Assembly: GCA_947629145.1 (NCBI GenBank)
Contig: CANRCQ010000007.1
Coordinates: forward strand, 1 to 38,005
Source of the DNA: an uncultured Clostridia bacterium
GTDB lineage: Bacteria; Bacillota; Clostridia; Christensenellales; UBA1242
Length of the DNA: 38,005 bases
Direction: 5' to 3'
Shown here: piece after piece, positions 5,817 through 31,745 of the stretch
Layout: each line of letters begins with the position of its first letter
How positions within the stretch are numbered: the stretch's first letter is position 1
Position numbers and translations under genes: made by a program
Notes under the pieces: model-generated
What the model was told of the DNA's origin: nothing
Databases searched by the model: none
Seen by the model: the letters and a program-made list of their open reading frames with translations, nothing else

Positions 5817-5839
5817 AAAAATAGTTTAAAGGTGGCTTG

Positions 5840-8800
5840 GTGAAAAGAAGAGTTAACTTTTTAATGTTGATTATATTCGCGTTGTGCGGAATTTTTGCTG
5901 GAATTAAACTTCCAACTTTTGTTGCACACGCTTCAAGTCAAACTGCAAGTGTTTGGGATGGAAAAATATACGAAAGAAGTGACTTGACCAATGCCGACTA
6001 TTACGAAGAAGGAAGCAAAGTTTATATTAGAAGCGCAAAGGGCTTTTCTTATTTTGCAAATTCTGTGAACAAGTCAACGGAATATCGCACATACAGCGGA
6101 ATGACAGTTTATCTTGAAACTGACATTGACCTTGCTGGAAAAGCCTGGACCCCAATTGGAAGTGGCAGCGGCAACGTCTTCCAAGGGACTTTCAATGGCG
6201 CTGCGGAAGGGCAATCCCAGGGGCATTACATTTACAATTTAAGCATTTCAGGTGAATTTACATATGCCGGACTTTTTGGAATAACTGGAAGTTCTGCGCG
6301 CATTTTAAACACACATCTTAGAAATGTCCAAATCAATGCGAACGCATCATATGTTGGCGCGATTGCTGGAAGTTTTGCATCCACAGACACAAATGCTTTT
6401 TCAAGCAACTCTGTTGAAGGGAATATTTTCGCAAACTCATCGGTGGCTGTTGGTGGACTTGTTGGAACAATGGCAGCGGCAATCACTTCTTGTTTTGCCA
6501 ATGTAAACATAAATGTCAACAACACTTCTTGCAATGTTGGTGGACTTGTTGGAACAATGGCAGGTTCAAGTTTGAGAACATCTTTTGCGGAAGGGGAAAT
6601 TGAAGCGAGTGCGCAAAATACTGGTGGGCTTGTCGGCTTGGCTTCAAGCACACTTTCAATTACGGACAGTTACAACGCGGCAAATATCAAGGCAACCAAC
6701 GGAAACTTTGGCGGACTTGTGGGGGATGCTGAAAACAACATCACATTAAATCACACCTACAATATTGGGGATTTGCCAGCAGAAACATCTGTGCAGACTT
6801 TTAAACGTGGCGCTCTTATTGGAATGGTGAACAGCGCCGCAACCATCCAAAACAGTTTTTATGTATATGAAACAAGTGATATTGGGATTTGCAACTCTTC
6901 TACACAAGAAGGAAATGCAAGTTCTTATTCAATTTCAAATGTTTACTCGATAAAGAAAGATTCTAGCAGCGACAGATTGGCAAAAACTCGCGAATTTTAT
7001 TTGGACACAAGCCGCTGGGCTGGAACTTGGGATTTAACTTCTTTGGTTCCTGAATGGGGAATAAGCAGAAACATCAATTCGTCTTACCCATATCTTATAA
7101 GGACAGCCGCTATTGTGTCTGCAAACAATGATGTATCTTATATGCTTTCCGGCTCTGGCACGGTGGATGACCCTTACATAATCGAAACGACAGGCGATTT
7201 GGCGGCAGTGGCAGAGTTTTACAATAATGGCAATGGCACAAATGAAACTTATTATTTCTCTTTGAAAAATAACATCTCTCTTTTGGGGCGCTCTTGGCAA
7301 CCTATTGGACACTCAAAAGCCTTCAACGGAGTTTTCGATGGAAACGGACACTCAATCACAGACCTTACTTGTTCACTTTATGAACAATATGCTTATCACG
7401 GACTTTTTGGACAGACAGAAAATGCAGTCATTAAAAATCTTACTATGGAAAATGTGAGATTTATAAATGATGGACAGACTGGACACGCTTATGGGAATTT
7501 TATTGGCTATGTTGCAGGGACAACATATCTTATAAACTGCGCCGATTATAATTCCGGACAAACCATTGGTGCGGTTGCAACAACAGGGGCTTCACAAGAA
7601 AAAAACTTGACTGTTGTCTATGGAAAGGAAAATGTGACAATAAGCGGCTCGCTTATCAAGGACAACCTTAAACTTACCGGAATAGCATACAACACGGCAT
7701 ACGAAGTGACAATAAACGGCAATGGTGGAATTTTCTATGAAACATATGCTCTTGAAAATTCAACCGACATATCTGGCGGAAAGGTTAAAAAACCTTATGC
7801 CACAGACGAAGGCAAACCTTATTACGGAGAATACAAAGTAATTTGGGAGTATGCACGCGGCGCTGGACAACAACATTATTTTAAACTTAAAGATGTTGGC
7901 GCGATTGATGCTTCTTACGGAAAATCACTCTTGCCAGTGGGAACAGAAAATTGGGGCGAAAACGATGTTTTGTATCTTCGTGGCAAAAAACTTGAAAGTT
8001 TTAGATACACAAGAAGGGGCGGAGAAAGTGTTGTTCAACAAGGGGACAACATTGTGATTGAAAGCAGCAGCCAAGACTCTGCCGCCGCCACAATTATTGA
8101 AGGGATTGATGCAAATTGGCAAACTGCAACGCAGACAGTCAGGGTGTATTACAATCAATATGAAAAAGACAATTTTAATGCCGAGATAAACAGAACCGCC
8201 GAATATCTCAACAGATTTGCTGCAGACGGAAACAAAAGTGATGAGATTATTTCAATTGACGATGATGGCTTAATTTATGTTGACTACAAATTGGAATACA
8301 ACTCTTTAATAAGTGACGGCGCAAACGGAAAAATCTTTGAAACATTGAAATATGGCGACAGTTTGTCTGTGCGTGAAGGCTTTGAAGTGGGTGAACTTTA
8401 TTATGACGCAAGTTTTAGAAACAAAGTTGAAAAAACTTCCAGTGGTTTTGTGAATGGAAATTTTCAAAAAGTTTACGCAAAATGGGTGGGGCAAAATATC
8501 ACTGGTTCGATAGACGTCAAATTTAACACCAACCACAATATTGATTTACAAGACGCGGTTCAAGAGATTTGGTTCACATCTTATTATGAAAATGGGAATG
8601 ACGGAACTAAAGATTACACCCAATTTGAACCTATAGAAAGCGATTTTCAGTCAAGCATAATGGCAACATTCGATTATGAATATACAATAAGCGATTCAAT
8701 GGACGACTCTGGGAAATTTACAATTTCTTTAAAAAATGGTTTTCAAATTGAAGAAGGAAGTGAAATTGTAATTGAAAACAGCCCTGACACAAACTTTGGT

Positions 8801-11800
8801 GTTTTGACAAGCAATATGGGAACAACTTTCACAGAATTACAAGATTTTAACAGTGCTCTCTTTTACAACTTGGTGGGGAAAGTGACCGTTTCCATGACAA
8901 TAACACCAACAACATATGATGTAGGTCAATTCTCCATAGCGCCTAATTTGGTGTTTGGTGTTGGCCCAATGGAAGAGATGAACATCACAAAAACAGGGGA
9001 AAATTATCGCTCGAATGTTTCAATTTTAAGTGGGGCACAATATATTGATATTTTAAGTTTTGCAGACGACCAATTGAAAGCGCGCTTATATGAGTTTCAA
9101 ACTTCTCAATCTCAAGTTGCCGAAGAGAGAAGGATTCCGCTTTATGTAGGCTTTGATTTTAAGAACAAAATGCTTATCTTTTCAAATACAGACCACGATA
9201 TTGTTTCATGTAATTTTGCGGAATCTGGAACTTTCTACTTTACTCATGGAGAGCAAAGAACAACTTACAGATGGGACACTGTGCAAGAAAAAATTGGAGA
9301 AGAAGGCGGAGAAGATATAACTGAAACATTCTATGTTATTAAAAAAGATTCAAGCATAGATAATGACTTTATTGTAAAATATTCGACATCATACAGAGGT
9401 ATGCTTTCCTTCCCAGCAAGAACAAATTTTGTTGTTGTTATGGACACGACTTTGCAAACGGCGGACTCAATGCCGATTGATTTTAGATATGAAAATATTA
9501 TAGGTGAAGAAGGGGATATTGCGGATATTACAGTGACAAATCTTATTGAAAATTCAGCTGACCCTAACAGACCTTTTAAAGGATTGTGGGAATTTGAAAA
9601 ACTTCTTGGAGTTGATGAAGCCGCAAACAGAAAATTTCAGGCATTCACAACATTTGAAAAAGCATATTTAGATATAGAATTTGTTACAAAGGCGGAAGAT
9701 GGAACTTTGAAAAAACTTTCAAATCATGCGCCATCTTACACTTTGTATTCTGTTAAAACAACCCCAGAAGGCGAAGAAACCAAGGAAGAAACCAACGAAT
9801 TTGATATTAGCACAAGTGGAAAAATTCAACTTGATTTCACAAACACAAGATATTATGAAGTTGTGCCTGAAGGAACATTGTATAATCAAGAAGATTACAC
9901 ATTAAAAGTTGAAGTTGAATCATACAATGTGGAAGATTTAAAAGACAATCAAGAATTTGGGGAGTATTTAGAAAGATTTAAAAATGATAACAGTATAATT
10001 TTTGATATTGTTAAAAACGATGGAAAAACTTTAATTTTAGACTATACAAGAGAAAGAAATGAAGACGGCAGTTTTAATTTAATAAACGGCTGGCAGGCAG
10101 GGCTTTACAAACTTTCTATAGTTTGCCAAGATGTGCAATACACAGTGAATGTTAGAAATGTTTTTGTGGATGTTGATGGCAATGTTTTAGACAATGTTCA
10201 AGACAGCGGAATACAGACAAAGGTTAGTTTCCTTGACACAGAAACGGTTGCAGGCGAAGATGTTGCAACGGCGGAAAAGACATCACTTTACACAACAGAC
10301 ATTTCCATTTCCACCGAACTTACAGAAAACAAAGGATTTGTGTTTAGGGGTTGGAATTTTGATGGCGCGGAAGATTTTACTGACAGAACAAACATTCATA
10401 GCTATGCAACAAGTTTGACTTTCACTCTTTCTCAATACAATTATTCAAGATTTGTTGAAGCACAAAATGAAATCACAATTTCCGCAGTTTACACAGTGAA
10501 GCAAGTTAGAATTTTGGGTTACAGGTCTTATTCAATTCAAGAAACTGACGAACTTGGCACACATGAAAGATTTGAAAGCGGAAGGCTTACATACACACTT
10601 ACTCAGCCAGAGAAAGAAGAGATAATCTACAATTACAACACCGCCAACATTCAGCAGACACTTTTAAACATTTGGCTCAGCCAAAATGAATATTTGTATT
10701 ATTACATAATCGGCTATAAGATTGTAAACGACAGGGGGACAACTCTTGCAATCGCAAAGACTGACGAAGGCGAAGACGTTTACAATGCTTTAAGGGATGA
10801 AAGCGATTTTGACGACCCAAGTTTCAACTCATCTCGTTGGGATGGCTTTTCGCTGGATGATTATTTGGAATATATTTTAAGAAATGACCAAACCACAAGC
10901 ACATCAAGGACATTATATCTTTCCCCAATTTTAAAGAGAAAAAACATAACCTTGATTTTCCATTCTGGCACAGGCGACCTTGGAAATCAATATGGCGATG
11001 AAAAGAATGGCACAATCTATGCAAACACAACACCTTATGCAACAGAAGTTCCAAACGACAAGACATTTGAAATTGTAAATCCAGCATCAATAATCTATTT
11101 AAACACCTACAATGTGGATTTTAGTGACAGACAGATTGCGCTTGACCAAGTGTTCTATTCAAGAGTGGGCTACACGAAGCCAGACAGCAACTATTGGGCA
11201 TGGAAAAACATCAATTCTTCTGGAACAATCTTATATTCACAACTTTCGTTAATCCCACAAATGTATAACTTCAACGGCACAAGCGGAGAAGTGCATTTTT
11301 ACATCAACTGGCAAGTGGAAACTTACAACATAACTTTCAGGCCTGGAGATGGCTTCTTTGAAGATGGAGATACATTTAAAACAATCCAAGTTGAATATGA
11401 TGCCATGATAAGAACGGAAATTCCTGTCAATATTTCAAGAAACGGCTATTCATTCGCTGGATGGGGAATTGATGGGGATGAAAACAAAAAGTTCTTTGAC
11501 GAAAAGGGCGTTCTTGTAGGCGCGAACATTGAATATGACGGACAGACCTATTTTGTCAACCGCCTTTACAAACACGCAGGAAACATTGTTTTGTTGCCAA
11601 TTTGGAGTTCACAACTATTTACTATAATTGTGGACTACAACAGCGGCACGGACATAAGAGAGCAAACATCTCAAACATACACACTTTTATATGGCGGAAG
11701 TTTTGCAGGAATATTCAATGCTGACGGCACACTTATTGAATACAATGTTTCAAGAGAAGGCTATTTACTTGATGGATTTTATGTAGCAAACGAAGCTGAC

Positions 11801-14800
11801 GACACAATCTTCCAAAGAATTACTGCCACAACAATATTTAGTTCAAGTCTTTTGGGCTTTCAGTTTGCAGCATTCACAGACCCACAAACAGTTGCACTTA
11901 CAATTTACGCAAAATGGCGTTTTGATAGGACATATTTCACGCTTTCTATGACAAACAACAGACATGAAAGTTTGGATTATATTGAAGCGGAACAGAAAGT
12001 TTATTTTGCAGATTATTTTGCACAAGACAACATAACGGCAAACAATATCACTGTAAATTCAGTTTATGAAGGCTTTAACATTTCCATTTCAGTGGAACAC
12101 ACAAAACTTTCACTTATGTTAGACGAACAGCCACAAGAAGAATTTAGAGATTATTTTGTTGTTTACAATGCAGGGGAATATCAAGTTCTGTTTGAAGTTA
12201 TCTTAACTGACCAAGCAAGCAAATTCAACCTTGGCGAAGTTAGAAGATTTTCTTTCTCACTTTATGTGAATGTAAACAGAGCAAGGCTTCTTAGTGATGA
12301 AAGTTTGAATGACAACATCTATGCACAAAACATAGTTAAAATCATAGAGCCATTTGTTGATTTGCAGAAGGCAGGCATTATTCAAGGACAAGATTTGTCA
12401 ACAGTTGTTTCAAGATACAAAGCCTATGAAGGTGTGGACACTTTTGACCAAGCGGATGATATGCAAGTTTATGAATACATTATGATAAAATACTATTTGC
12501 TTTTGACGACAAACATTGCAAACGATTACAGAGCATATAAGGCTTGGACTTACAGCGACTATCTTGATTACAAACAAGAAAACGAAACTACGGTTTCGAC
12601 AAGAATTGCAAATTTAAAATTCTTCACTTATTATGATTATTTCAATCCAACGCAAACAGTTGAACTTGCAGAATATTTAAGTGGAATTTCACTTAAAGCA
12701 GTCAATATTGAAAATGTAAATCTTACACCAACAAAAGTGACATTAAATTCGGCTGTTTACACAATTTCGCCATTTACACTTTATGATGTTCGTGTTTATG
12801 TTGCGGAAAGCGAAAATGTTTCAAATTACAATCTCAACAATGACGCAGACGGCTTTTACTTTGAAATAGGAAGCGGCTATGTTATGCCACAAGTTTTGAC
12901 CTTGAAAAACAAGGTTGAAAATCCATCTGTTTACTATTCAAAATATTATTCAACCAGAGAAGTTCTGTTTGAATTGGATTATCCAACATATGAGTTTGAA
13001 GAAACAACATATTACAACTATAATGGAATTTACATAAACGCAAAACTTTATTCAAGTGACAGGGAAGTTGGACAATATTCATTTAAAGACAAAACAAATT
13101 ATCTTTTCTTTGATGAAATAAATGTTGCAATTATGGAAGATGACAGGCTTTACAATTCAAGGAACTTCAAACTTGTCCTTGACGAAGCGGACATCTTTAC
13201 AATCTTGGATGTGACTGGGGTTGCAAGTGTGGAAGTGACGGCAAAATATTTGACTACACAAGACGACTATGCAACTTTAAGTGATGTTGATGAAGATATA
13301 CTTTATATATCAAACATAACATATAATATAGGCGAAGATGCCGTTACACTCAATCCTATTGACAATCCAGAAGCATTCACTGTGGGAATGCATATGTCAG
13401 GCGATGTTCAACTTTATCAAATTGAAGAAAATGATTCCAATCGAATTTTTGTTTATCTCAATCAGTTTGTAACAGAACTTGTCATTTCAACAAAGCAGAT
13501 GCGACTTACGGACTATGAATACGCAAGTCTTTACAAGTGGAGTGAAAATCAACTTTACAATGTAGATGGCACAATGGAAAGCAGTGACACCTTGACTTTA
13601 ACGCGTGAACAATTTGATTCTGCGGAAGAAGACGAACTTTCACAGACAATTTATTATGCAATATTCACTGACCTTGTGTATGTTGAATACAACTTTAATT
13701 TCCCATCATCATACAGCGAAACAAACGGCACTTCAAGCACTTTGAAACTTGGCGAAAGCACATATGATTCACTTTATTGGCCATATGAAGCAGGGGTTGG
13801 GCAATGTTCAAGTATGTTTTTAATGTTAAATGGAAACGAGTATAAAATCACAGAAAACAGAGAGATGTTGTTCCGTGGGGATGATGGAGTCTTTATTGGG
13901 CTTAACAACTCAAACAGATTCCAAAAAGTTGTCTTTTCTTGCAAGTGGACAATAAGCACAACAATGAACTATATTCAACTTTTGCATAATGAAAAAATCG
14001 CCGTTGGCACATATAAAACTTTGTCCTATGGGCAAGTTGTATATCTTTACAATCTAAACGAAGATATGTTTACATATTCATATGTATGGCAAAAGGACAT
14101 TGATGGAGATTATCAAACAGTAAGTGAAACAAACTTCTTGGAACTTGCAAACGGCGGAAGTGCAGATGAAAGCGGCTCGTTTAGACTTCAAATTGTGGCA
14201 AAGATTCGCGAAGAGTTCTATCCATGTTTAGATGAAAATTCTCCAAAAGAATACTCAGTCAACGCAGATTTCTCACTTGAATTTATAAAAAACATAATCG
14301 ACAATGTGGAATTTTCTCAGCAGCCGGTCACTTATGACGCAAAAGACCATGCAGAAGAAGTGACAGTCACAGTTGTATATCGCTCTTGGGGAAATGAAGA
14401 CTATGGCCAGCAGATTTCAAGAGAACTTACAATTTCTCAAACAGATTTCATTCCACTTCAAGTTTTGCTTGCAGAAGAAGAAACAACCGTGCTTAGAAAT
14501 GCAGGAATTTACACAATCAATCTTTTGATTGACGACAGCAAGTTTGAATATGGCGAAATTACAAAAACTTTCCAATTTGTGATTGACAGAAGGGAAGTTG
14601 ATTTAGACAATTCCTTCACGGCAACAAAAGAGTTTGCCGCAAGCGACCCAGCACTTGACATGAATTTTGCAGTGAGAGATGAAGGCTCGCTTATTGAAAA
14701 CATAACCTTGTCACTCACACGCGGCACAGACCCAAGCGAAGATATTGGCGAAAGCGGACTTTATTTTGCCTTGGTGGGCGAAGAATTTAAAGACAACTAC

Positions 14801-17800
14801 ATCTTTAAATCCAATGGAGTTGTGCTTTATGACGGAGAAACAAAGCCAGAAGCACTTGAAAACTCTGTTGGCACATTCACAATCACTCAGGCGGACACTT
14901 TAAGACTGAATTACACAATCACAACAGACAACCCAGCCATTTGGACAGAAACTTATGTAAAGGGCGGATTTAATGTTGCTGTTTCGACAAGCGGAGATGA
15001 CTTTGTTTTGCAAATCAAACAGCAAGACACAGTTAAACACCAGTTTACACTTGTTTTAAATGACGCGATAAATGGAATTATTTCTTCAAGCAAAATCTTG
15101 CAAATATTAAAGGCACACTTCGACCCAACAATTCGTTTTATCATCGGCGACAAGACCTTTGATGTTGCGGAAGATTGTGAAATTTACAACTATTCACTTT
15201 CAAACGGCGCGCAACTTTCAACTTATTACAGAAATGTTGAGATAAGTTTGGATTATAAATTCCAAATCACACAACAAATAATTGACATTACTGGCATCAC
15301 TTATGTTAAAACTTTCGATAACGAAAACACCGCAACCATAAGCCTTGAAGGCGAAGAAATCAATCCGGAAGAATACAACGGACTTTATATAGAAGTTTTA
15401 TATTATTCAGTTCACGCAGACGACAGCGTTATGGTTGGGCTTTCACTTAATCAAGCAGGGGAAAGCGAAAACAAGGACAATTTCACACTCAGTCAAACCA
15501 CAGCATATTGGAAAGTGGCAAAACTCACTGCAACTATGACCCTTGAAATTGATACAGATAAAGAAAGATATAAAACCGAAGTTGCATCTCACTATAAATA
15601 CGGAGTTTTAAATGTTTCAAACATCAAACTGGGCGACTTTGTGAAGATAAAAGACGTTCAAAAAGAAGATGGAACATCTGTTTTGAGATGGCTTTATGAA
15701 GGATTTTATTCTTTGACATTCAATCACGATGCAAGCAGTGTAAGTGAACAGGGATTTTTATATCATGGAAGTTACTCACTCACTCCAGAATATGAATTTC
15801 AAGATTTTGAAATGACCGTCAACTCACTTGATTTTGTTGTTGATGTGCTTGAAATAGAACACAATCTTTCAAGGAATTTTGTTGTCATCACAGTATTGGA
15901 CAAGATTGCGGCAAGTTATCCAGAAACAATAAACCTTTCCACAGGCGAAGTGTTAAATCTTGAATACACTGTAAGTGGACAGACACCAGACACAAGCCTT
16001 CCAGAAGGCAACTATGATTTTGTTTTCAAAGCGGACAATGGGCTTGTTGCAAAATTCTTAAACGACAGTGTTGTTGTCACAATCAACGCAAACAACCAGG
16101 CTCTTGGAGTTGTCAAAGAAGCACAAGCTGTCTATGCAAGAATTGTTGATGAAAATGTTGACACATTAAATCCAGACAACTTGAAAGTCGTTTATTCAAG
16201 AGAAAGTTATGCCTTTGTTTTAACTGATGTAACGACACTGAAACTTCAAAAAACTGGCGCAGATTTTAGAACATTTAATGTTAGATATTTCACAAGAACA
16301 AACGTTGACGGTGTTGTCAGTGAAACGGCAGTTGACACATCAGCTCTTGGCACAGTTACAATAACCGCAGGGGATATGCTTGCTGTTGGCAAATACAACC
16401 TTTCAATCTCAATGAGAGAAGGCAGTTACGTAAACATCATCTTTGCAGAAAACTATGCGTTTGAAATCACTCAAATTGTAATTGATGTTGAAAAATTGAA
16501 CATTCAAAAAGAATTTAACTATTCAAGGGATATTACAATAAGCGAGTTCAGTGAAAAAATCTCTGGCGAAGATGTTTCAATTCTTGCAAGATTTGAAGAT
16601 TTGGAAATTGGCGACACAAAACACGTTGATTTGTATTTAAACGGTGCTAACAGAAACAATTACACACTTTCTTCAACAAGTATAGAAGATGGACAAATCA
16701 AAAAGGCACAGGCAACCATTTCGCTCAACAAACTTTCATATGTTTATGGGCAGATAAGCAACATGGGAACTTATGAATTTGCATTCACTGTAAATTCAAA
16801 TGAACAGGTTGTGCCATCCGCCGGATATAAACTTTCTGTGGAAATTCAAAACGCAACATTCTCTTCTTCCACAAATAGATATTTGGATGTGGGCGAATAC
16901 ACAGTAAATGTAAGTGGCGAAAGTGCAAACTATGAAATTCAAAACGCAACTTTTGAAATTGAAGTCACCGCGCTTGAACAGTCACTTTTGCTTGAAAACA
17001 ACGGCATGATAACGGCGATCTATGGCTCTTTGGCGGCACGCAGCGACACCGTAACTTACACCATGACAAGCACACTTGGCGAAAAATTTGACGTCACATT
17101 AAAACGCGAAATGGGCACTCAATTAGGCTTTTATCGCATTCTTTCAAACGGATTTTCAAGTCAAGATAAAAACTACATTCTTACAAAAGTGGAAGACACA
17201 TCCATAAGGGGTGCATTCCAAATCACTCGTCAAAATCAAAGAGTGTTTGTTCTGTTTGATGACGGCACAACCACATTTGAAGTGCTTTACAACGGCTTTG
17301 AATACAACAGAGTTAATGTGATTTTAAAAACAGACGGCTATTACATGACAATCACTCACACTTCAGGGCTTTCACAGACACTTGAAAAGAAACTTGGCTT
17401 CTTCTATCTTGAAGGGGGCAAATACAACAAATATGAAGAAGAATTTACTGTTGAAGGACTTGTTGCAACACTTGAATTTATGAATTATCCACTTATCAAA
17501 CAGAAAGGGGAATACAACATTCAGTCAGTAAATGCCACTTCTTCAACCCACGATGTTAAAATGGGAAAAGACGGCACATTGTATGCATTTACGTTTGTAA
17601 TTTCAAAGATAGAACTTGAACTTAAAGACGAGTTCAGCACGCAAATCACAAAGACATTCAATTTTAATGATGCCGTTTATGACTATGAAGATGCAAGCGA
17701 ACTTTTCAAAGGCATCACAACAGAAGATGGACTTAGCGCACAAGTTAAGTTCTACACAGACAACACCTACACCACACTTGCAAAATTTGTTGGCACAAAT

Positions 17801-20800
17801 TACAGAGTTGTAATCACTGTTGATGGGGCAAACGCAATCAACTATTCTATTCCAGACTATCTTTCAATGCCAGATGGGGGAATTCCACCACAGACAGTTA
17901 TTGGAACAATCGAACGCGCCGATGTGACATTCTATGTCAGCAACCTTACATTTGCTTATGGCGAAAAGTTTGACCTAAACAGCATGGTTAGATATGAAGT
18001 GGATTTTGTTTTCGATGAAGCGGCTTTGACAGAATACAAAAAACAGCGCACTTGGGAATTGGAACTTATATACAACTATGATGGGCCTTTAAGCACAACA
18101 GGAAATTTGCCAGCAAACGAATATTCCCTTACTTTGAATTTCAACGCAACAGACTTTAAAGTTTTAAAATATGTGACCGACAACAGCGAAAGCGAAACCT
18201 TGCAGGCAAAACTTGCAATCACACGCAGAAAACTTCAACTTATCGAGAAATCAACTCCGTTTGAAGATATGTTTGTAAAGACCTATGACGAAACGCCAGA
18301 TGTTGTAAATGCATTCACAAGTGGGGTTGCAAACTTTGATATTTCTGGGGTTTTAACAGACGATGATGTTCAAGTTTTATCTGCGGAATTTGAAAATGAA
18401 AAAGTTGGAAATCCAAAGAAAGTTAGATTTGTTCTTAAAGGCGCGGACAAAGACAACTATGTGCTTGATGACTATGCATTTGGCGCAATCAATCCTATCG
18501 AAATTGACATTGTGTTCAATTATGAAGACCCAATTTATTCAAGTGTTGATGAAATCGGCGCGCCACAACTTTCAAGCATAGGCTACCCATTTGTTTCAAC
18601 AAACAATCTTACATCCAACTCTCTTGATGAAAGAACAAAAACTGGAAGAAGTTTCCCAAGTATGCTTTACAATAACCTTGGATTTGATTTTGCTTATTGG
18701 ACACTTGATTTCAACATTGTGGACAATCCAACAAAAGTTGAAAAACTTAAAGAGTTGATTGCAAAGGCTGGGCTTACATTAGACATTCGTTCAAACGAAG
18801 CGGAAGGGCTGTTTAAGGTTCAAGTTTCAAACAACGCAAAAACAGTTGAATTTATTGGTTTGCTTGTCAAAGAACAAGAACAATTCCCAGAATTTTACTT
18901 TAAGTCAAATTCAAAAATTCAAATCGTCTTCCAGCCTAACTGGGACCCACAAATAGAAAAACTTGAAGTTGTGGCAACTGATGAAAACGGAAATGAGATG
19001 CCTGTTGGGGTTATCAGTGTCAATGGAAGTGTGGATGCGGACAGTTATTCACAAGAATTTGACTATGATGCAAGTATAGATGTCAAAGTGAAGGCAGTTT
19101 CTCACGCATTCTATTTTGGCTTCTACATCAAAGTTGAAGACGAATGGGTCAACGCACAAAATGTTGAAGGAGTGATGATTTCTTACTCAACCGACTATGA
19201 TATGCTTCTTCAAATGCACATCAAAGAAAACACGCAAATTCAAGCAAGATTTTCAATTCAAAAAGTTGCAGTTGACATTTCACTTGCAGATTTTGAAAAT
19301 GCCGAATTGACATCTTCTAATTTTGTCGATGATGACGGCGACAAGGTTTACACTTGGAACACAGATTATTTCACACTTTTGAATGTTCAAGTAAGCGCTT
19401 TGCCAAGCATAACGCGCACAGGCTATCAGCATTTGGGCTACACTCACAGGGGCACACTTTTAGAAAGCGAAAGAATGCTCAGTGAACTTGTCACAGACAT
19501 CAATCAGTCAACTTCAATCACACTTGTTCCATTGTTTGAAAGACAAAAGATTGAAGTTACACTCAACTTCAATCATGACAATGTTGAAAATGTGACAATC
19601 ATTGTTGAATATGGGCTTGCATACAAAACAAGTGCAGATTGGGAAGAAAACAAAAATCCAAGTCGCGCTGGCTTTATGTTTAAAGGATGGCAAAAAGATG
19701 GAGTCACGATAGACGAAAACAATGCTGTCACAGAAGCACACACACTTGTTGCACAATGGGAAGTTCTTAAATTTACATTAAAATTTGTTGTTGAAAATGC
19801 GGAAATTTCAAATTCTTCTCATGAATTTGAATTTGACGGCACAAATATCTATCAGGCAACAGATGTTGAATTTGAAGAAGAAATCACATTCAAAGTGACG
19901 GCAAATGCCGGCTATATGATTTCAAGCACTTGGGCAGATGAATTTGATGTTGAATTTGACGACACAAGAGATACAATCGCAAGTGTCACATTCAAAATGC
20001 CAAATTATGACGGCGATGTTTATGAATACACACTTCCAATCATTCCAGTTTCAAACAGAATTACAATCACAGGCGAACATATTGGGCTTATTGAAGCATA
20101 CAACAATTCAACAAGCGAAAATATTGATGTGGCAGGAAGCAGTTTCTATATTGAAACAGACAATCGTTTCACAATCACATTGACGGCAGAATTGGGCTAT
20201 GAATTTGAACAAGACATAACCCTTTCAGTTGAAGGCATTCAAAAGACAGTTAATATAGTTGAAAAACAACTTGTGATTGAAATTGAAAGTGTAAACAGCA
20301 ATGTTGATATTACAATCACAACAAAACGCAGTTTAAATGATGTGACAATTGCTTTTGATGAAATTTTACAAATCAAAAACATTATTGTGGAAGGCACAAC
20401 CTATCTCACAAGCGGACTTCAACCATTCAAGGTTGTCACTGGCGAAGAGTTTGTATTCTTTGTTACATTTGAATATGGCTACTCATTCGACAGGGTTGAA
20501 AGCGAACAATTCACACACAGCGAAAATCTTGATGACAGCGGACTTTATGAAGAAGGCGTGTATAGAGTTGTCGTTTCAAACATCAATCAAAGCGGAACAG
20601 TTACAATTTATTCAACCACCGCAATCTTCACAATCTCAACCGAAGTTATCACTTGGGACAGCAATCACGACAGAGTTACAGTTGACGGAAACATTGCTTA
20701 CATAAACGGCGACATAGTTCCAGTCAGCGCAAACTATCAAGACACAGTTACTTTCACATACAGAGAAGCATCAAATTATTATTTCGCAGGTTGGTCAAAA

Positions 20801-23800
20801 GACGGAATTGAGATATTCAGCAGTCTTAAAGAACTTGTTTACACAGTTGAAAAAGACGAAACTATTTACGCGATTTTCTCCGCTTCTCATTACTTAATCT
20901 CTCTTGCAACACTCAGTGTAAGCGAAGTTTCCGTTGAAACGCACATGGAAACACTTTACACAGAACTTCGCGGACTTTCCGCAGGAAGATACACGAATTT
21001 AGACGGCACAGATATTCAAAGTGTTCAACTTTACTTTGGAACAAATGCAGTTGTTATGTTCTATGTTCCACAAGGGTTCATCTATTCTGGATATGGCTAT
21101 TACAACACCGAAAATCAATTTATTTACATAGACCAAAATCCAAGCAATGAAAGAATTATTGAAGTCAACATCACAACACAGACTGTTGGCGAAAACGTGT
21201 TTAGAATTTATTTTGTAGTTTCCGCTTACAGTGTTTCCATCGATGTTCAAACGCAGATAAGAATAAATGAAACTCGCCAAGACAACAACATGATTGGAAT
21301 TGCACAACTTGTTGGCGCAAACGGCGAAAGTGTCAAAGAAAACGGCTATATCGAAGGCTCTCGCGCACACTATGAAGGCGCTTATATTCCAACTGATTTC
21401 CACAACTTCACTGTAATTTCTTACACCGGCGACAGAATATATATTCGTGTTGAAATCCAGCGCGATGGATATGTCTTTGATGGGCTTGTTTGCACGGATT
21501 ACAGTGTTATTATCGCAAAAACCAGAAACGAAGATATTATCTATGAAGTGTCCAATTTTGTAGGAGATGTGGACAAACACATAAGCCTTTATGTTGTGTT
21601 TAAGCCTATCATCAACATGGTTGAACTTACATTTGAACACAATTCAACAACGGTTGAAGGCGGCGTGTTTGAAGTTTCCCCAGCAGGCGAAGAATATGCA
21701 GGAATGATTTCAACATCTGGAAACAGCAGACCTTCTGTCAATGTTTACGCATTCACAGACAGCAAGTTTGTTGTTCACGCATATATTAAACTTGGCTATT
21801 ATGTAAATGACGCGTCAAATCTTGTCATCATTGATGAAAACTTAATTGTGGAAAGTGGGGCAACTTACACGAAATTCAGCGAAGCGCAAATATTGCAATC
21901 TGGCTTTACAGGAATGGTGTCATTTACAATTTCTGGCTTCATGCACACTCAGTCAATCAAGATTGTTTTAAATGCACAAACTTACACTGTCAAACTTCGC
22001 GATGGCAACACCGAGAAAGAAGACGGAGGAACTTTACTTGCCACAATCAAAAATGTTGAATTTGGAAGTTTGATAGACCTTACAAATGATGGACATATTA
22101 CAATTGAAGACGGCAGACTTTCCTTTGTGGGCGGCAAACTCAATGTAATTGTAGAGCAAGATAAATACAATTTTGAAGGTTATTTCACACAGCCAAGTGG
22201 CGCAGGTGTTAGATATTTTGATTCACACGGAAACATCCTTTCAACATGGCAGGAAAGCGGCTTCTCATTCAATCAAAGAACAAAACTTTATGAAAGAAGT
22301 GCAAATGCCGTGTTCAAAGAAAACGGCGAGATTGAAATTTCACTTTATCTTTACATGAGTTATCTTAAAACAAAGATAAGATTTGCAATTATTCCAGACA
22401 TTCAAACAAACATCACGGCGCAGGACATTGTTTCTGGTGTGAATGTGTATAATTCTTGGTATTATTCTTCACAGCCACTTTACATGGAAGTTACATTTGG
22501 AACAAACATCTATTTCAACGCACCAGAAATTGCAGGCTATGCATTCTATCGTTTTGTAATCAATCAGCGCCCAGCAGGTGGGGATTGGTTCGCTCCAGCC
22601 TACTCTTACAGCGAACGCACTCCATGGTCAACCAATCAACTTGACAACTTTGTTGAATGCGAAGTGCAGATTGTTTACTTTGCGCAAGTTGATATAAGGA
22701 TTATTGGTGGGGAAGCAAATCCAATAATTACACAACAAGACAGCAACTCCCAGGCGCTTAATTTGCTTGAAAAGTATTATGTTGACACATCCAAATCCTT
22801 TACATTAAACGCAAATCCTGTGGAAGGATATGAGTTTATAAGTTGGACAAACACAAGCACTGGCTACACAAGTGGAAGGGAAATCATAACTCAACAAATC
22901 CAAAAGCGAGTTATCTTTATCATGGTTTTGGAAGGGCTTCCGGTCAACCTTGACTTCACGGATTATGAAACAAAGTTTGGACAGATTGTTCAAGTTAGAA
23001 TAACTCCAAAAAATGGCACAACATCGGCATATTCACTTGGGCATTACAACAATGCTGGTGATTTTGTGAAAGATGTGTCAACTTACACAGCCCATGTTGG
23101 GGATTATATAGAATTTGTGCTTAATGTAGAACGCGGATTTGCTGTTGTTTGGGACAGCCCTGAAAATATGCAATTCAGCCGTTTTGAAAATCAAAGATAT
23201 TACTTTAAACTAGAACTTATTGGGCATATTGCGACCTATGAAACTTTGAATATAATTCCAAGATTTGAAGATGAGATTTTGTCTGTTTACATCAATGAAA
23301 AATTTGCGGATGACCAAATTATTGAAAATGCATTTGACCTTAATGATGAGTCCCTTGCAGGAGCAATTACAAACGCAAATGGTGTTACAGTAAAATCTAT
23401 TGTCGCAGATAAAAATGCCGACATCACACTTTTAAGTGTTGTCAATCCAAAATACAGAATTACAAACATCAAAATTCAAAACTATGGGCTTGAATACAAC
23501 GATATGGACACAATTTTCCATGATGGAAAAATTACAATCACAAAGGCATATCGCGCTGGAAAAGCAGAGCCAATCATAGGCACAATTTCGCTTGTTGTTG
23601 AATATTCAAGACTTTTGTGGGAAAATGATTTTCTTGTGGACACCAACCTTAGCGGCGCAGGAACGGACAGAAATCCATATCAAATTTCAAATTCTTCTCA
23701 ACTTACTCTTATGATGCAACTTGTAAATTCAGGAGCAGTCAATGAAAGCGGATTAAGTTATAAAAACGCAAGTTACATTTTGACGGACGACATCGACCTT

Positions 23801-24097
23801 TATGCTAAGTTCTGGACACCTATTGGCACAAGAGAAAATATGTTTGGCGGACAATTCAACTTCAACAATCATACAGTCACAAACATCCAACTTTACAGAA
23901 CCGACTTCTCTCCAATTTACAGTTCTGGGTTGTTTGGCTACATAACCGCAGATGCACGAATCATTTTAAGCGAAACATCACTTTGGTATATTTATCTTAT
24001 CGTGGGGATTGTGCTTGGACTTATCATCCTTCTTATCATTTTGCTTCTTGTAAATCATAAGAAGAAAAAGCAACGCGAGCAAATGGCGAAGAGATAA
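5840..24097 (+). CDS. Giant secreted, membrane-anchored repeat protein (~6,085 aa): GLUG-like, InlB-B-repeat-like and MBG/YDG-like modules
   Basis: Continuous ORF (track start TTG 5837; GTG 5840 preferred after AAAGGTGG). Signal peptide VKRRVNFLMLIIFALCGIFAGIKLPTFVAHA; GLUG-like VGGLVGTMA repeats; B-repeat-like YNITFRPGDGFF...ISRNGYSFAGW and VTLNFNHDN...NPSRAGFMFKGWQKDG; MBG-like ATISLNKLSYVYGQ and ADVTFYVSNLTFAYGE; C-terminal TM IYLIVGIVLGLIILLIILLLVNHKKKKQREQMAKR. Confidence 0.93.
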   Translation: MKRRVNFLMLIIFALCGIFAGIKLPTFVAHASSQTASVWDGKIYERSDLTNADYYEEGSKVYIRSAKGFSYFANSVNKSTEYRTYSGMTVYLETDIDLAGKAWTPIGSGSGNVFQGTFNGAAEGQSQGHYIYNLSISGEFTYAGLFGITGSSARILNTHLRNVQINANASYVGAIAGSFASTDTNAFSSNSVEGNIFANSSVAVGGLVGTMAAAITSCFANVNINVNNTSCNVGGLVGTMAGSSLRTSFAEGEIEASAQNTGGLVGLASSTLSITDSYNAANIKATNGNFGGLVGDAENNITLNHTYNIGDLPAETSVQTFKRGALIGMVNSAATIQNSFYVYETSDIGICNSSTQEGNASSYSISNVYSIKKDSSSDRLAKTREFYLDTSRWAGTWDLTSLVPEWGISRNINSSYPYLIRTAAIVSANNDVSYMLSGSGTVDDPYIIETTGDLAAVAEFYNNGNGTNETYYFSLKNNISLLGRSWQPIGHSKAFNGVFDGNGHSITDLTCSLYEQYAYHGLFGQTENAVIKNLTMENVRFINDGQTGHAYGNFIGYVAGTTYLINCADYNSGQTIGAVATTGASQEKNLTVVYGKENVTISGSLIKDNLKLTGIAYNTAYEVTINGNGGIFYETYALENSTDISGGKVKKPYATDEGKPYYGEYKVIWEYARGAGQQHYFKLKDVGAIDASYGKSLLPVGTENWGENDVLYLRGKKLESFRYTRRGGESVVQQGDNIVIESSSQDSAAATIIEGIDANWQTATQTVRVYYNQYEKDNFNAEINRTAEYLNRFAADGNKSDEIISIDDDGLIYVDYKLEYNSLISDGANGKIFETLKYGDSLSVREGFEVGELYYDASFRNKVEKTSSGFVNGNFQKVYAKWVGQNITGSIDVKFNTNHNIDLQDAVQEIWFTSYYENGNDGTKDYTQFEPIESDFQSSIMATFDYEYTISDSMDDSGKFTISLKNGFQIEEGSEIVIENSPDTNFGVLTSNMGTTFTELQDFNSALFYNLVGKVTVSMTITPTTYDVGQFSIAPNLVFGVGPMEEMNITKTGENYRSNVSILSGAQYIDILSFADDQLKARLYEFQTSQSQVAEERRIPLYVGFDFKNKMLIFSNTDHDIVSCNFAESGTFYFTHGEQRTTYRWDTVQEKIGEEGGEDITETFYVIKKDSSIDNDFIVKYSTSYRGMLSFPARTNFVVVMDTTLQTADSMPIDFRYENIIGEEGDIADITVTNLIENSADPNRPFKGLWEFEKLLGVDEAANRKFQAFTTFEKAYLDIEFVTKAEDGTLKKLSNHAPSYTLYSVKTTPEGEETKEETNEFDISTSGKIQLDFTNTRYYEVVPEGTLYNQEDYTLKVEVESYNVEDLKDNQEFGEYLERFKNDNSIIFDIVKNDGKTLILDYTRERNEDGSFNLINGWQAGLYKLSIVCQDVQYTVNVRNVFVDVDGNVLDNVQDSGIQTKVSFLDTETVAGEDVATAEKTSLYTTDISISTELTENKGFVFRGWNFDGAEDFTDRTNIHSYATSLTFTLSQYNYSRFVEAQNEITISAVYTVKQVRILGYRSYSIQETDELGTHERFESGRLTYTLTQPEKEEIIYNYNTANIQQTLLNIWLSQNEYLYYYIIGYKIVNDRGTTLAIAKTDEGEDVYNALRDESDFDDPSFNSSRWDGFSLDDYLEYILRNDQTTSTSRTLYLSPILKRKNITLIFHSGTGDLGNQYGDEKNGTIYANTTPYATEVPNDKTFEIVNPASIIYLNTYNVDFSDRQIALDQVFYSRVGYTKPDSNYWAWKNINSSGTILYSQLSLIPQMYNFNGTSGEVHFYINWQVETYNITFRPGDGFFEDGDTFKTIQVEYDAMIRTEIPVNISRNGYSFAGWGIDGDENKKFFDEKGVLVGANIEYDGQTYFVNRLYKHAGNIVLLPIWSSQLFTIIVDYNSGTDIREQTSQTYTLLYGGSFAGIFNADGTLIEYNVSREGYLLDGFYVANEADDTIFQRITATTIFSSSLLGFQFAAFTDPQTVALTIYAKWRFDRTYFTLSMTNNRHESLDYIEAEQKVYFADYFAQDNITANNITVNSVYEGFNISISVEHTKLSLMLDEQPQEEFRDYFVVYNAGEYQVLFEVILTDQASKFNLGEVRRFSFSLYVNVNRARLLSDESLNDNIYAQNIVKIIEPFVDLQKAGIIQGQDLSTVVSRYKAYEGVDTFDQADDMQVYEYIMIKYYLLLTTNIANDYRAYKAWTYSDYLDYKQENETTVSTRIANLKFFTYYDYFNPTQTVELAEYLSGISLKAVNIENVNLTPTKVTLNSAVYTISPFTLYDVRVYVAESENVSNYNLNNDADGFYFEIGSGYVMPQVLTLKNKVENPSVYYSKYYSTREVLFELDYPTYEFEETTYYNYNGIYINAKLYSSDREVGQYSFKDKTNYLFFDEINVAIMEDDRLYNSRNFKLVLDEADIFTILDVTGVASVEVTAKYLTTQDDYATLSDVDEDILYISNITYNIGEDAVTLNPIDNPEAFTVGMHMSGDVQLYQIEENDSNRIFVYLNQFVTELVISTKQMRLTDYEYASLYKWSENQLYNVDGTMESSDTLTLTREQFDSAEEDELSQTIYYAIFTDLVYVEYNFNFPSSYSETNGTSSTLKLGESTYDSLYWPYEAGVGQCSSMFLMLNGNEYKITENREMLFRGDDGVFIGLNNSNRFQKVVFSCKWTISTTMNYIQLLHNEKIAVGTYKTLSYGQVVYLYNLNEDMFTYSYVWQKDIDGDYQTVSETNFLELANGGSADESGSFRLQIVAKIREEFYPCLDENSPKEYSVNADFSLEFIKNIIDNVEFSQQPVTYDAKDHAEEVTVTVVYRSWGNEDYGQQISRELTISQTDFIPLQVLLAEEETTVLRNAGIYTINLLIDDSKFEYGEITKTFQFVIDRREVDLDNSFTATKEFAASDPALDMNFAVRDEGSLIENITLSLTRGTDPSEDIGESGLYFALVGEEFKDNYIFKSNGVVLYDGETKPEALENSVGTFTITQADTLRLNYTITTDNPAIWTETYVKGGFNVAVSTSGDDFVLQIKQQDTVKHQFTLVLNDAINGIISSSKILQILKAHFDPTIRFIIGDKTFDVAEDCEIYNYSLSNGAQLSTYYRNVEISLDYKFQITQQIIDITGITYVKTFDNENTATISLEGEEINPEEYNGLYIEVLYYSVHADDSVMVGLSLNQAGESENKDNFTLSQTTAYWKVAKLTATMTLEIDTDKERYKTEVASHYKYGVLNVSNIKLGDFVKIKDVQKEDGTSVLRWLYEGFYSLTFNHDASSVSEQGFLYHGSYSLTPEYEFQDFEMTVNSLDFVVDVLEIEHNLSRNFVVITVLDKIAASYPETINLSTGEVLNLEYTVSGQTPDTSLPEGNYDFVFKADNGLVAKFLNDSVVVTINANNQALGVVKEAQAVYARIVDENVDTLNPDNLKVVYSRESYAFVLTDVTTLKLQKTGADFRTFNVRYFTRTNVDGVVSETAVDTSALGTVTITAGDMLAVGKYNLSISMREGSYVNIIFAENYAFEITQIVIDVEKLNIQKEFNYSRDITISEFSEKISGEDVSILARFEDLEIGDTKHVDLYLNGANRNNYTLSSTSIEDGQIKKAQATISLNKLSYVYGQISNMGTYEFAFTVNSNEQVVPSAGYKLSVEIQNATFSSSTNRYLDVGEYTVNVSGESANYEIQNATFEIEVTALEQSLLLENNGMITAIYGSLAARSDTVTYTMTSTLGEKFDVTLKREMGTQLGFYRILSNGFSSQDKNYILTKVEDTSIRGAFQITRQNQRVFVLFDDGTTTFEVLYNGFEYNRVNVILKTDGYYMTITHTSGLSQTLEKKLGFFYLEGGKYNKYEEEFTVEGLVATLEFMNYPLIKQKGEYNIQSVNATSSTHDVKMGKDGTLYAFTFVISKIELELKDEFSTQITKTFNFNDAVYDYEDASELFKGITTEDGLSAQVKFYTDNTYTTLAKFVGTNYRVVITVDGANAINYSIPDYLSMPDGGIPPQTVIGTIERADVTFYVSNLTFAYGEKFDLNSMVRYEVDFVFDEAALTEYKKQRTWELELIYNYDGPLSTTGNLPANEYSLTLNFNATDFKVLKYVTDNSESETLQAKLAITRRKLQLIEKSTPFEDMFVKTYDETPDVVNAFTSGVANFDISGVLTDDDVQVLSAEFENEKVGNPKKVRFVLKGADKDNYVLDDYAFGAINPIEIDIVFNYEDPIYSSVDEIGAPQLSSIGYPFVSTNNLTSNSLDERTKTGRSFPSMLYNNLGFDFAYWTLDFNIVDNPTKVEKLKELIAKAGLTLDIRSNEAEGLFKVQVSNNAKTVEFIGLLVKEQEQFPEFYFKSNSKIQIVFQPNWDPQIEKLEVVATDENGNEMPVGVISVNGSVDADSYSQEFDYDASIDVKVKAVSHAFYFGFYIKVEDEWVNAQNVEGVMISYSTDYDMLLQMHIKENTQIQARFSIQKVAVDISLADFENAELTSSNFVDDDGDKVYTWNTDYFTLLNVQVSALPSITRTGYQHLGYTHRGTLLESERMLSELVTDINQSTSITLVPLFERQKIEVTLNFNHDNVENVTIIVEYGLAYKTSADWEENKNPSRAGFMFKGWQKDGVTIDENNAVTEAHTLVAQWEVLKFTLKFVVENAEISNSSHEFEFDGTNIYQATDVEFEEEITFKVTANAGYMISSTWADEFDVEFDDTRDTIASVTFKMPNYDGDVYEYTLPIIPVSNRITITGEHIGLIEAYNNSTSENIDVAGSSFYIETDNRFTITLTAELGYEFEQDITLSVEGIQKTVNIVEKQLVIEIESVNSNVDITITTKRSLNDVTIAFDEILQIKNIIVEGTTYLTSGLQPFKVVTGEEFVFFVTFEYGYSFDRVESEQFTHSENLDDSGLYEEGVYRVVVSNINQSGTVTIYSTTAIFTISTEVITWDSNHDRVTVDGNIAYINGDIVPVSANYQDTVTFTYREASNYYFAGWSKDGIEIFSSLKELVYTVEKDETIYAIFSASHYLISLATLSVSEVSVETHMETLYTELRGLSAGRYTNLDGTDIQSVQLYFGTNAVVMFYVPQGFIYSGYGYYNTENQFIYIDQNPSNERIIEVNITTQTVGENVFRIYFVVSAYSVSIDVQTQIRINETRQDNNMIGIAQLVGANGESVKENGYIEGSRAHYEGAYIPTDFHNFTVISYTGDRIYIRVEIQRDGYVFDGLVCTDYSVIIAKTRNEDIIYEVSNFVGDVDKHISLYVVFKPIINMVELTFEHNSTTVEGGVFEVSPAGEEYAGMISTSGNSRPSVNVYAFTDSKFVVHAYIKLGYYVNDASNLVIIDENLIVESGATYTKFSEAQILQSGFTGMVSFTISGFMHTQSIKIVLNAQTYTVKLRDGNTEKEDGGTLLATIKNVEFGSLIDLTNDGHITIEDGRLSFVGGKLNVIVEQDKYNFEGYFTQPSGAGVRYFDSHGNILSTWQESGFSFNQRTKLYERSANAVFKENGEIEISLYLYMSYLKTKIRFAIIPDIQTNITAQDIVSGVNVYNSWYYSSQPLYMEVTFGTNIYFNAPEIAGYAFYRFVINQRPAGGDWFAPAYSYSERTPWSTNQLDNFVECEVQIVYFAQVDIRIIGGEANPIITQQDSNSQALNLLEKYYVDTSKSFTLNANPVEGYEFISWTNTSTGYTSGREIITQQIQKRVIFIMVLEGLPVNLDFTDYETKFGQIVQVRITPKNGTTSAYSLGHYNNAGDFVKDVSTYTAHVGDYIEFVLNVERGFAVVWDSPENMQFSRFENQRYYFKLELIGHIATYETLNIIPRFEDEILSVYINEKFADDQIIENAFDLNDESLAGAITNANGVTVKSIVADKNADITLLSVVNPKYRITNIKIQNYGLEYNDMDTIFHDGKITITKAYRAGKAEPIIGTISLVVEYSRLLWENDFLVDTNLSGAGTDRNPYQISNSSQLTLMMQLVNSGAVNESGLSYKNASYILTDDIDLYAKFWTPIGTRENMFGGQFNFNNHTVTNIQLYRTDFSPIYSSGLFGYITADARIILSETSLWYIYLIVGIVLGLIILLIILLLVNHKKKKQREQMAKR
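6448..6563 (+). repeat. 29-bp exact direct repeat (two copies, 87-nt period) inside GLUG-like region
   Basis: TGTTGGTGGACTTGTTGGAACAATGGCAG at 6448-6476 and 6535-6563; encodes VGGLVGTMA twice. Confidence 0.85.
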
Positions 24098-30155: not shown

Positions 30156-30275
30156 ATGAATCACAAAGTGTATATTTAAGCAAAAAAGCAGCAAAAGTGC
30201 GCTGATGCAGCAAAACAAGCCCAAAAAGAGCAAGAAACTAAACAAAAACCAAAAGAAAAAGAAAGAGAAAAATAA
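30156..30275 (+). pseudogene. Interrupted micro-ORF: MNHKVYI*AKKQQKCADAAKQAQKEQETKQKPKEKEREK* (7-aa peptide, small RNA or nonsense-disrupted ~39-aa gene)
   Basis: RBS GGAGAG, ATG 30156, in-frame TAA 30177-30179, frame then open to TAA 30273-30275; strong promoter upstream and terminator immediately downstream. Confidence 0.5.
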
Positions 30276-30300
30276 AAGACTGAAAACTCAGTCTTTTTTT
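30274..30300. terminator. Bidirectional terminator hairpin, copy 1
   Basis: AAGACTGA-AAAC-TCAGTCTT (30276-30295) + T-run on + strand, T-rich on - strand. Confidence 0.88.
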
Positions 30301-30386
30301 GATGGCTCAACTTTTATGTCATTAAGTTGTTCTTTAAGTATCTCAAACATCTCATCAACCCATTTATCAAATTCTTTCTTCGTCAT
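30288..30386 (-). CDS. Small 32-aa ORF (MTKKEFDKWVDEMFEILKEQLNDIKVEPSKKD), translationally coupled to the WG-repeat gene
   Basis: TAATG overlap with upstream stop codon, SD AGGGAGAA upstream; stop TGA lies in the terminator stem. Too short for the ORF track. Confidence 0.65.
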   Translation of the reverse strand: MTKKEFDKWVDEMFEILKEQLNDIKVEPSKKD

Positions 30387-31624
30387 TATAAATTTCTCCC
30401 TAAGTCTTTGATATTTTCTGCTGCTTTTTTAGCGACTTCGGCCTTTTTATCAATTTCAGCGTCATGCGCTCTGCGCTCTGCTCTCTCGGCAGCTATTTCT
30501 TGTTCTATTATTGCAATATTTTGTTTCTCTTTTTCAATTTTATTTGAAATCATATCATAAACTTGTTTTGTGTATTCTTCAACTTCTTTTGAAGAACCTT
30601 TTTTTGAGCATAAATCATATTTAATTCCATCGGCGATTGCATTTAAACATTTTTCAATTTCTTTTTTGCCTTCATCGAATAATGTAGTTGGGAGTTGTTC
30701 AAAATCTTCTGGATGTTTTCTTAAACAACTATATAAATCATCAAATCTACCATCGTCATTTATTGTCGCTTTTATAGATGTTGGCAAAACAACGTTATCG
30801 CGAAGATTAAAGTATGTCCATTTGTTTCTTATTCTAACAGGAACAAACCAACTGTCATCCACATCGAGAGCGTCATCAAAGTATCCTTTACAACATTCAT
30901 TTGATGTTGGATCGTAATAAGTCCATTTTTTGCCGATTCTAACTGCTGCAAATCTACCATGAATATCTCTAACCTCATCAAATTCCTGTTCACAAAGTTT
31001 CTTGGTTGATGCTTCATAAAAAGTCCATTTTTTACCGATTTTAACCGCCGCAAAGTAATTTTTATTATGATTAGCTCCAATAATATTTCTAAACTTATCA
31101 AATTTTTGTTCATGAACTTCTCCAGTATATGGATTGCAAAAAGTCCATTTTTTGCCGATTCTAACTGCTGCAAAGTAATTATGAATATTTAGAATCTCAT
31201 CAAATTTTTCTTCAAAAAGTTCTCCAGATGAAGGACTGTAAAAAGCCCATTTTTTGCCGATTTTAACCACTGGAAGTCCATTTGTATGAACATTAATATC
31301 ATCAAATTTTTGTTTACAAAATTCTCCAGTTGAAGGATTGTAAAAAGTATATTTTTCAACGTCTTTTTTACCGAATTTTTTAGTGATGATAACCGCAGCA
31401 AAGCCTGCATGAACATTACTAGGATTATAATTAAATCTTTCTTTACAAAGTTCTCCAGTTGAAGGATTGAAAAATGTCCATTTGCCATCGATTTTAACAC
31501 TAGCAAAGCCTTCATGAACATCAACAACATTATCAAATCTTTGTTCACAAAGTTTACCAGTACTTTTATTTTTAAAAGTCCATTTGTCGTCAAATTCTAC
31601 AGGTTCAAAAAGTTCTTCTTCCAT
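30386..31624 (-). CDS. KWT/WG-type repeat protein (412 aa, ~8 repeats) with C-terminal charged coiled-coil
   Basis: Repeats of FAAVRIGKKWTFYNPSTGELCEQKFDEV-DIH type; start re-assigned to ATG 31624 (SD AAGGGGG) because the track ATG (31651) lies inside the -10 element. Confidence 0.85.
   Translation of the reverse strand: MEEELFEPVEFDDKWTFKNKSTGKLCEQRFDNVVDVHEGFASVKIDGKWTFFNPSTGELCKERFNYNPSNVHAGFAAVIITKKFGKKDVEKYTFYNPSTGEFCKQKFDDINVHTNGLPVVKIGKKWAFYSPSSGELFEEKFDEILNIHNYFAAVRIGKKWTFCNPYTGEVHEQKFDKFRNIIGANHNKNYFAAVKIGKKWTFYEASTKKLCEQEFDEVRDIHGRFAAVRIGKKWTYYDPTSNECCKGYFDDALDVDDSWFVPVRIRNKWTYFNLRDNVVLPTSIKATINDDGRFDDLYSCLRKHPEDFEQLPTTLFDEGKKEIEKCLNAIADGIKYDLCSKKGSSKEVEEYTKQVYDMISNKIEKEKQNIAIIEQEIAAERAERRAHDAEIDKKAEVAKKAAENIKDLGRNL
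30800..31610 (-). repeat. Imperfect tandem repeats (~105-bp period) encoding KWT/WG repeats
   Basis: Recurring (rc) ...TTTTTGCCGATTTTAACCGCCGCAAAG / AAAGTCCATTTTTTGCCGATTCTAACTGCTGCAAA... blocks. Confidence 0.8.
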
Positions 31625-31646
31625 AAAATCCCCCTTAATTACCCTT

Positions 31647-31674
31647 ATCATAACACGGGGGGGGGATTTGTCAA
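31647..31674 (-). promoter_or_regulatory. Promoter of the WG-repeat gene with a homopolymeric C9 tract in its spacer
   Basis: Minus strand: TTGACA (31674-31669), AATCCCCCCCCCGTGT (16 nt), TATGAT (31652-31647), TGt extended -10; G9 on + strand at 31657-31665. Confidence 0.8.
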
Positions 31675-31718
31675 GTGCTTTTTAAAAAATATTAAAAAAA
31701 GTGCGGAAAAACAAGAAA

Positions 31719-31745
31719 AAAAGACTGAAAACTCAGTCTTTTTGT
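31719..31745. terminator. Terminator hairpin, copy 2 (same stem-loop as 30276-30295)
   Basis: AAGACTGA-AAAC-TCAGTCTT (31721-31740) + TTT; A-rich flank gives T-tail on minus strand. Confidence 0.85.

Follow-up and report, generated by a model that had tools for sequence, protein, structure and literature searches.

The cytosine tract ahead of the WG-repeat gene in the analysed DNA, a window of 38,005 nucleotides from an uncultured Clostridia bacterium, is best explained as making the spacer of a housekeeping-sigma promoter variable in length, and we give this reading a probability of about two in three. The promoter architecture itself is real and recurrent. Slipped-strand replication would gain or lose C's in the tract, the shift in tract length would move the -35 and -10 elements apart or together, and the binding of RNA polymerase would change. 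A single clone would then comprise cells differing in expression of the WG-repeat gene and a coupled small protein. The recurrence of the arrangement suggests that copying slips, by altering promoter length, tune many surface-type genes. A high slippage rate, an effect on transcription, and a phase-variable phenotype are inferred.

The minus strand at 31674-31647 reads TTGACA AAT CCCCCCCCC GTGT TATGAT with a spacer of 16 nt, exactly as described in the first-pass annotation. The -35 hexamer TTGACA occupies 31669..31674, the C9 tract occupies 31657..31665 inside the 16-nt spacer (AAT-C9-GTGT), and the -10 hexamer TATGAT occupies 31647..31652, with a TG extended -10 motif ahead of it. In addition to this TG motif, the promoter has a consensus score of 11/12, and the homopolymer of at least 8 lies wholly within the spacer of a near-consensus promoter. 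The start codon of the WG-repeat gene is 22 nt 3' of the -10 and is preceded by AAGGGGG (31630..31636, minus strand), read as the ribosome-binding site. A terminator-like hairpin predicted at 31718..31743 (minus strand) separates the promoter from the ankyrin-repeat gene upstream (32059-31733, minus strand) and probably insulates the WG unit from it. A second predicted hairpin of the same type, at 30274..30297 on the minus strand, follows a 32-aa ORF and ends the two-gene unit.

The WG-repeat protein gene (30386..31624, minus strand, ATG at 31624) encodes 412 aa and matches Pfam WG_beta_rep with an E value of 9e-9; no N-terminal signal segment or signal peptide is found in the 412-aa protein. 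The gene is present in 3 of 112 congeners, namely the genome of the window and 2 of the 111 others. The ortholog in G199 (CANRDW01) has 69-73% identity, depending on method, and that in G136 (CANRMV01) has 37%; both genomes are rabbit-derived Clostridia MAGs. The TTGACA and the -10 of both orthologs likewise enclose a pure C9, so that all three WG species carry C9, with spacers of 16 in the window, 17 in G199, and 16 in G136. The stop codon of the WG gene is overlapped (TAATG) by the 32-aa ORF at 30288..30386 on the minus strand. This coupled ORF, proposed earlier, is present and is kept in both orthologs (about 4219-4299 in L086 and about 2493-2573 in L087), where the protein starts MTK(K/Q)EFDKWVDE(M/L)FE. 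Because of its presence in both orthologs with a shared start, the ORF likely encodes a real small protein. The small protein has 26-32 aa, is translationally coupled to the WG gene or adjoins it in 3/3 species, and is better conserved than the WG protein when judged by eye. An RNA hairpin was also considered, since AAATCCCCC of the spacer and GGGGGATTT of the ribosome-binding site could pair. This was judged a coincidence, because the pairing is only CCCCC/GGGGG in G199 and absent in G136, and because the spacer would be outside the transcript of the WG promoter.

The genome of the window (G000) comprises 947 kb in 57 contigs, and its tracts were counted from pattern searches and short stretches. 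The C9 had been noted as a lone tract. Within the 38 kb window it is indeed the sole C/G run of at least 6, whereas genome-wide it is 1 of approximately 28 C/G tracts of at least 8, with about 13 in promoters. These 28 distinct tracts correspond to 39 overlapping C/G 8-mer places, against 0.1-5 C/G runs of at least 8 per 947 kb expected from Markov models fitted to the window; the abundance is beyond chance. Between 11 and 13 of the tracts of at least 8 sit within consensus promoter spacers, and approximately 13 promoters carry C7-9 or G8-9 between the -35 and -10, including a C7 version at C6:13182 and G8/G9 versions at C47:5174 and C21:8960. The pattern TTGACA-N-C6+-N-TANNNT occurs at 11 promoters and the reversed-pattern control at 0, and nearly all 11 are followed by a ribosome-binding site and then an open reading frame. 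For G000, 98 distinct TTGACA-N14-19-TANNAT sites were listed; the longest C run in their spacers is bimodal, being 0-4 or 7-9 and never 5-6. A mobile or repeated element bearing the promoter was rejected, as most of the tract-promoter flanks are unrelated outside the core; shared flanks occur mainly among duplicated gene families.

G/C tracts are also found outside promoters in G000. A G10 in a deaminase-like gene (L024, G000:C21:12444-12453) and a G11 inside another gene (L013, G000:C13:9198-9208) are both out of frame in this assembly with open flanking reading frames, and the genome may thus also hold coding phase-variable loci; other coding G tracts are in frame. In L037 (G000:C32), the minus strand has a G9 tract at 1561 and another at 2334, in similar AAATATG(T/C)G9ATTTT sites, directly 3' of a start codon and ribosome-binding site, with a short peptide read from each. 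The window also contains a 6086-codon open reading frame at 5837-24097 on the plus strand, within a genome of 947 kb.

The architecture is widespread in the genus, of which 61 of 112 congeners were sampled. C-tract promoters are present in 31/61 and G-tract versions in 17/61, with 1-15 per genome. The 115 C runs comprise 3 of length 6, 7 of length 7, 29 of length 8, 66 of length 9, 9 of length 10, and 1 of length 11. In other genera of the same family, tract promoters occur in 3/60 genomes besides G000. In the order outside the genus, the sites are mostly C6 (30/45; genus versus order, Fisher p 1e-15), and C8+ tracts are scattered, apart from a small cluster in family f32. The promoter spacers of this family (G394, G413, G314, G238, G298, and G422) contain C8-C12, and it represents a second lineage in the order, possibly of independent origin. 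Across the phylum, nearly all of the sites listed are C6-7, with almost no C8+. Chance or GC composition was rejected as an explanation, since the reversed-pattern control is zero genus-wide and the sites outside the genus are mostly a C6-7 tail such as chance would give.

The tract may be of C or of G, and its position is variable: it lies 0-5 bases from the -35 and 1-8 bases from the -10. Total spacer length is held near 16: a flank of 7 is mostly combined with C9 and a flank of 8 mostly with C8, giving a spacer of 16 either way. Flank and tract length are correlated with a rho of -0.50 in the flank-7/8 classes without G142, the p value of which is made optimistic by shared ancestry; the correlation is weak across all classes, and G142 has many spacers of 19-20. 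The first-pass annotation gave 17 bp as the optimum; the non-tract promoters of G000 peak at 17 (52/89), whereas its tract promoters are at 16 (6/9; p 1e-4). From this difference between ordinary and tract promoters, we read the class as poised, in the majority state captured by the assemblies, one base below the optimum. The occurrence of both C and G tracts, their variable offsets, the compensation, the preference for 16 over 17, and the one-base tract differences between near-identical paralogous promoters favor tuning by spacer length over a site bound by a protein.

The genes downstream of the tract promoters are biased to the surface or envelope, as expected of contingency loci, although the WG gene itself is without a membrane or signal segment. 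Simple hydropathy and motif rules identify a hydrophobic N-terminal membrane or signal segment in 35/72 downstream proteins and in 26/104 background ORFs from the same loci (p 0.002), and lipobox-like starts in 9 downstream and 3 background proteins (p 0.016). Among those scanned, the downstream proteins are mostly without a Pfam family, and they are mostly orphans. Several of the genes belong to families duplicated inside one genome, and those of G132/G133 include NUDIX-like and SDR-like enzymes of ordinary appearance, judged from sequence look only. In L004, L111, and L112, from two species, about 148 nt upstream of the tract promoters are 79-80% alike but are followed by different genes, which looks like a shuffling of promoter regions between genes.

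Paralogous promoters that are otherwise near-identical can be one C apart. In G142, L091 and L092 have C9 and L093 has C10, and in G102, L082 and L110 have C8 and L109 has C9; these differences are read from draft MAG assemblies, and in L093, 17 bases lie between a contig end and the start of the tract promoter. Further promoters of G142 (L096, L097, L100, and L101) have C10, C11, C10, and C9, respectively, and near-identical promoters of G138/G134 have C9/C10. Tract promoters often lie less than 200 bases from a contig end (G142:C2:17-45, G136:C46:30-58, G102:C14:113-140, and G152:C10:52198-52228 of 52233). Assemblies broken by repeated gene families or by tract polymorphism would show such placement. 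Overall, tract lengths are very narrow, mostly 8-9. Intact mismatch repair lowers one-base slippage. MutS (MutS_I) and MutL (DNA_mis_repair) are present in 61/61 genomes; the tracts thus do not stem from a loss of mismatch repair, and drift in repair-deficient genomes was rejected as their cause.

The main rival is a fixed promoter element or regulon, in which a regulator or the genus's sigma factor reads C8-9 (or the G strand) and binding fixes the length, with no switching. The very narrow lengths fit such an element, as do the pure tracts kept even where protein identity between orthologs falls to 37%, the fairly uniform orientation and offset inside a single genome, and the regulon-like recurrence ahead of many unrelated genes. 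The same narrow lengths, the C9 in all orthologs, and the intact MutS/MutL speak against a length-variable spacer. Yet a bound motif sits poorly with tracts that wander 1-8 bases from the -10 and 0-5 from the -35 and occur as both C and G. Moreover, the compensation of flank length to 16 bp is not required by a binding site alone, the motif is not palindromic, and copies are one base apart. We consider the fixed element unlikely on balance.

Less probable still are non-adaptive homopolymers, in which slippage bias makes G/C runs that are kept in free spacer sequence with a mild effect on expression. Spacers do tolerate sequence change, and coding regions of the same genome hold tracts too, but the tracts are concentrated in consensus promoter spacers, and C runs of 3-6 are nearly absent there, so that the decaying tail is missing. 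The mismatch repair genes found in every sampled genome and the pure tracts that outlast flank divergence of 20% and more also weigh against it. By far the lowest standing of these explanations belongs to an artefact of assembly or sequencing that affects the presence or the length of the tract: the genomes are largely draft MAG-type and several tracts are near contig ends (G142:C2:17 and G136:C46:30), but dozens of species share the architecture, as do two independent orthologous contigs. It is very unlikely that tract presence is an artefact, and possible that exact length is.

The length-variable spacer is preferred. The earlier proposal that tract length tunes the WG promoter gains support from the recurrence, the compensation near 16, the one-C differences between paralogs, and the genome preference for 17, and it is partly supported. 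The WG promoter would be one of about 13 in its genome, in a class preceding fast-evolving accessory genes in about half of the genus, many of them predicted lipoproteins or membrane-anchored proteins. As the spacer in the assembled genomes is mostly 16 and the usual length in the window's genome is 17, one added C should increase expression and one lost C should decrease it. The enzyme-like products of some downstream genes and the WG protein without a signal peptide argue against this reading. We are evenly divided on the broadest proposal, that this reduced-genome Clostridia genus uses a dispersed network of spacer tracts, one base short of the optimum, as its main form of bet-hedging over orphan envelope genes, with the tract recruited repeatedly before unrelated genes.

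A few pathogens are known to use phase variation by spacer length, at a handful of loci. The same logic may operate here at as many as about 15 promoters in a genome, across a large genus that is apparently uncultured, is represented by 112 species, and has genomes of about 1 Mb. If switching is confirmed, the architecture would give a sequence signature by which metagenomes could be searched for phase-variable genes, and would explain why orphan genes bear tracts. No description of spacer-tract promoters in gut Clostridia was found in the open-access literature.

The tract lengths of opc in Neisseria are longer than 8-9. In N. meningitidis, porA, fetA, and opc have unstable homopolymers between the -10 and -35 (PMC2791445), and a change in their length is thought to alter sigma-factor binding, according to the passage of that paper citing Sarkari 1994 and van der Ende 1995. 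Tracts of at least 8 are predominantly the variable ones in this species (PMC5084427). The Clostridia set resembles these loci in anatomy, as read from sequence, with a homopolymer between the -35 and -10. In contrast to the three loci of the Gram-negative Neisseria, a Clostridia-type genome of about 1 Mb has about 13 here, and about half of the sampled congeners have 1-15 each; the tracts are of C or of G, and their length keeps tightly to 8-9. In H. pylori, the T-tract of the sabA promoter tunes RNA polymerase binding stepwise; it adjoins the -35 and acts via DNA shape and UP-element alignment (PMC4081817). The Clostridia promoters likewise have a homopolymer by the core promoter elements, whereas theirs is a C or G tract within the spacer. 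In Mycoplasma, the surface lipoprotein paralog families Vlp and pMGA have a repeat in each promoter region (A tracts, GAA), and a paper on the spacing of the pMGA GAA repeat is cited in PMC2791445. The likeness lies in a repeat in the own promoter of lipoprotein-type paralogs, whereas the repeat units and positions differ and the downstream families of the Clostridia set are unrelated orphans, including cytoplasmic-looking proteins. The spacer-tract principle is thus already known from Neisseria porA/opc/fetA, and by this comparison its genus-wide deployment appears to be new.
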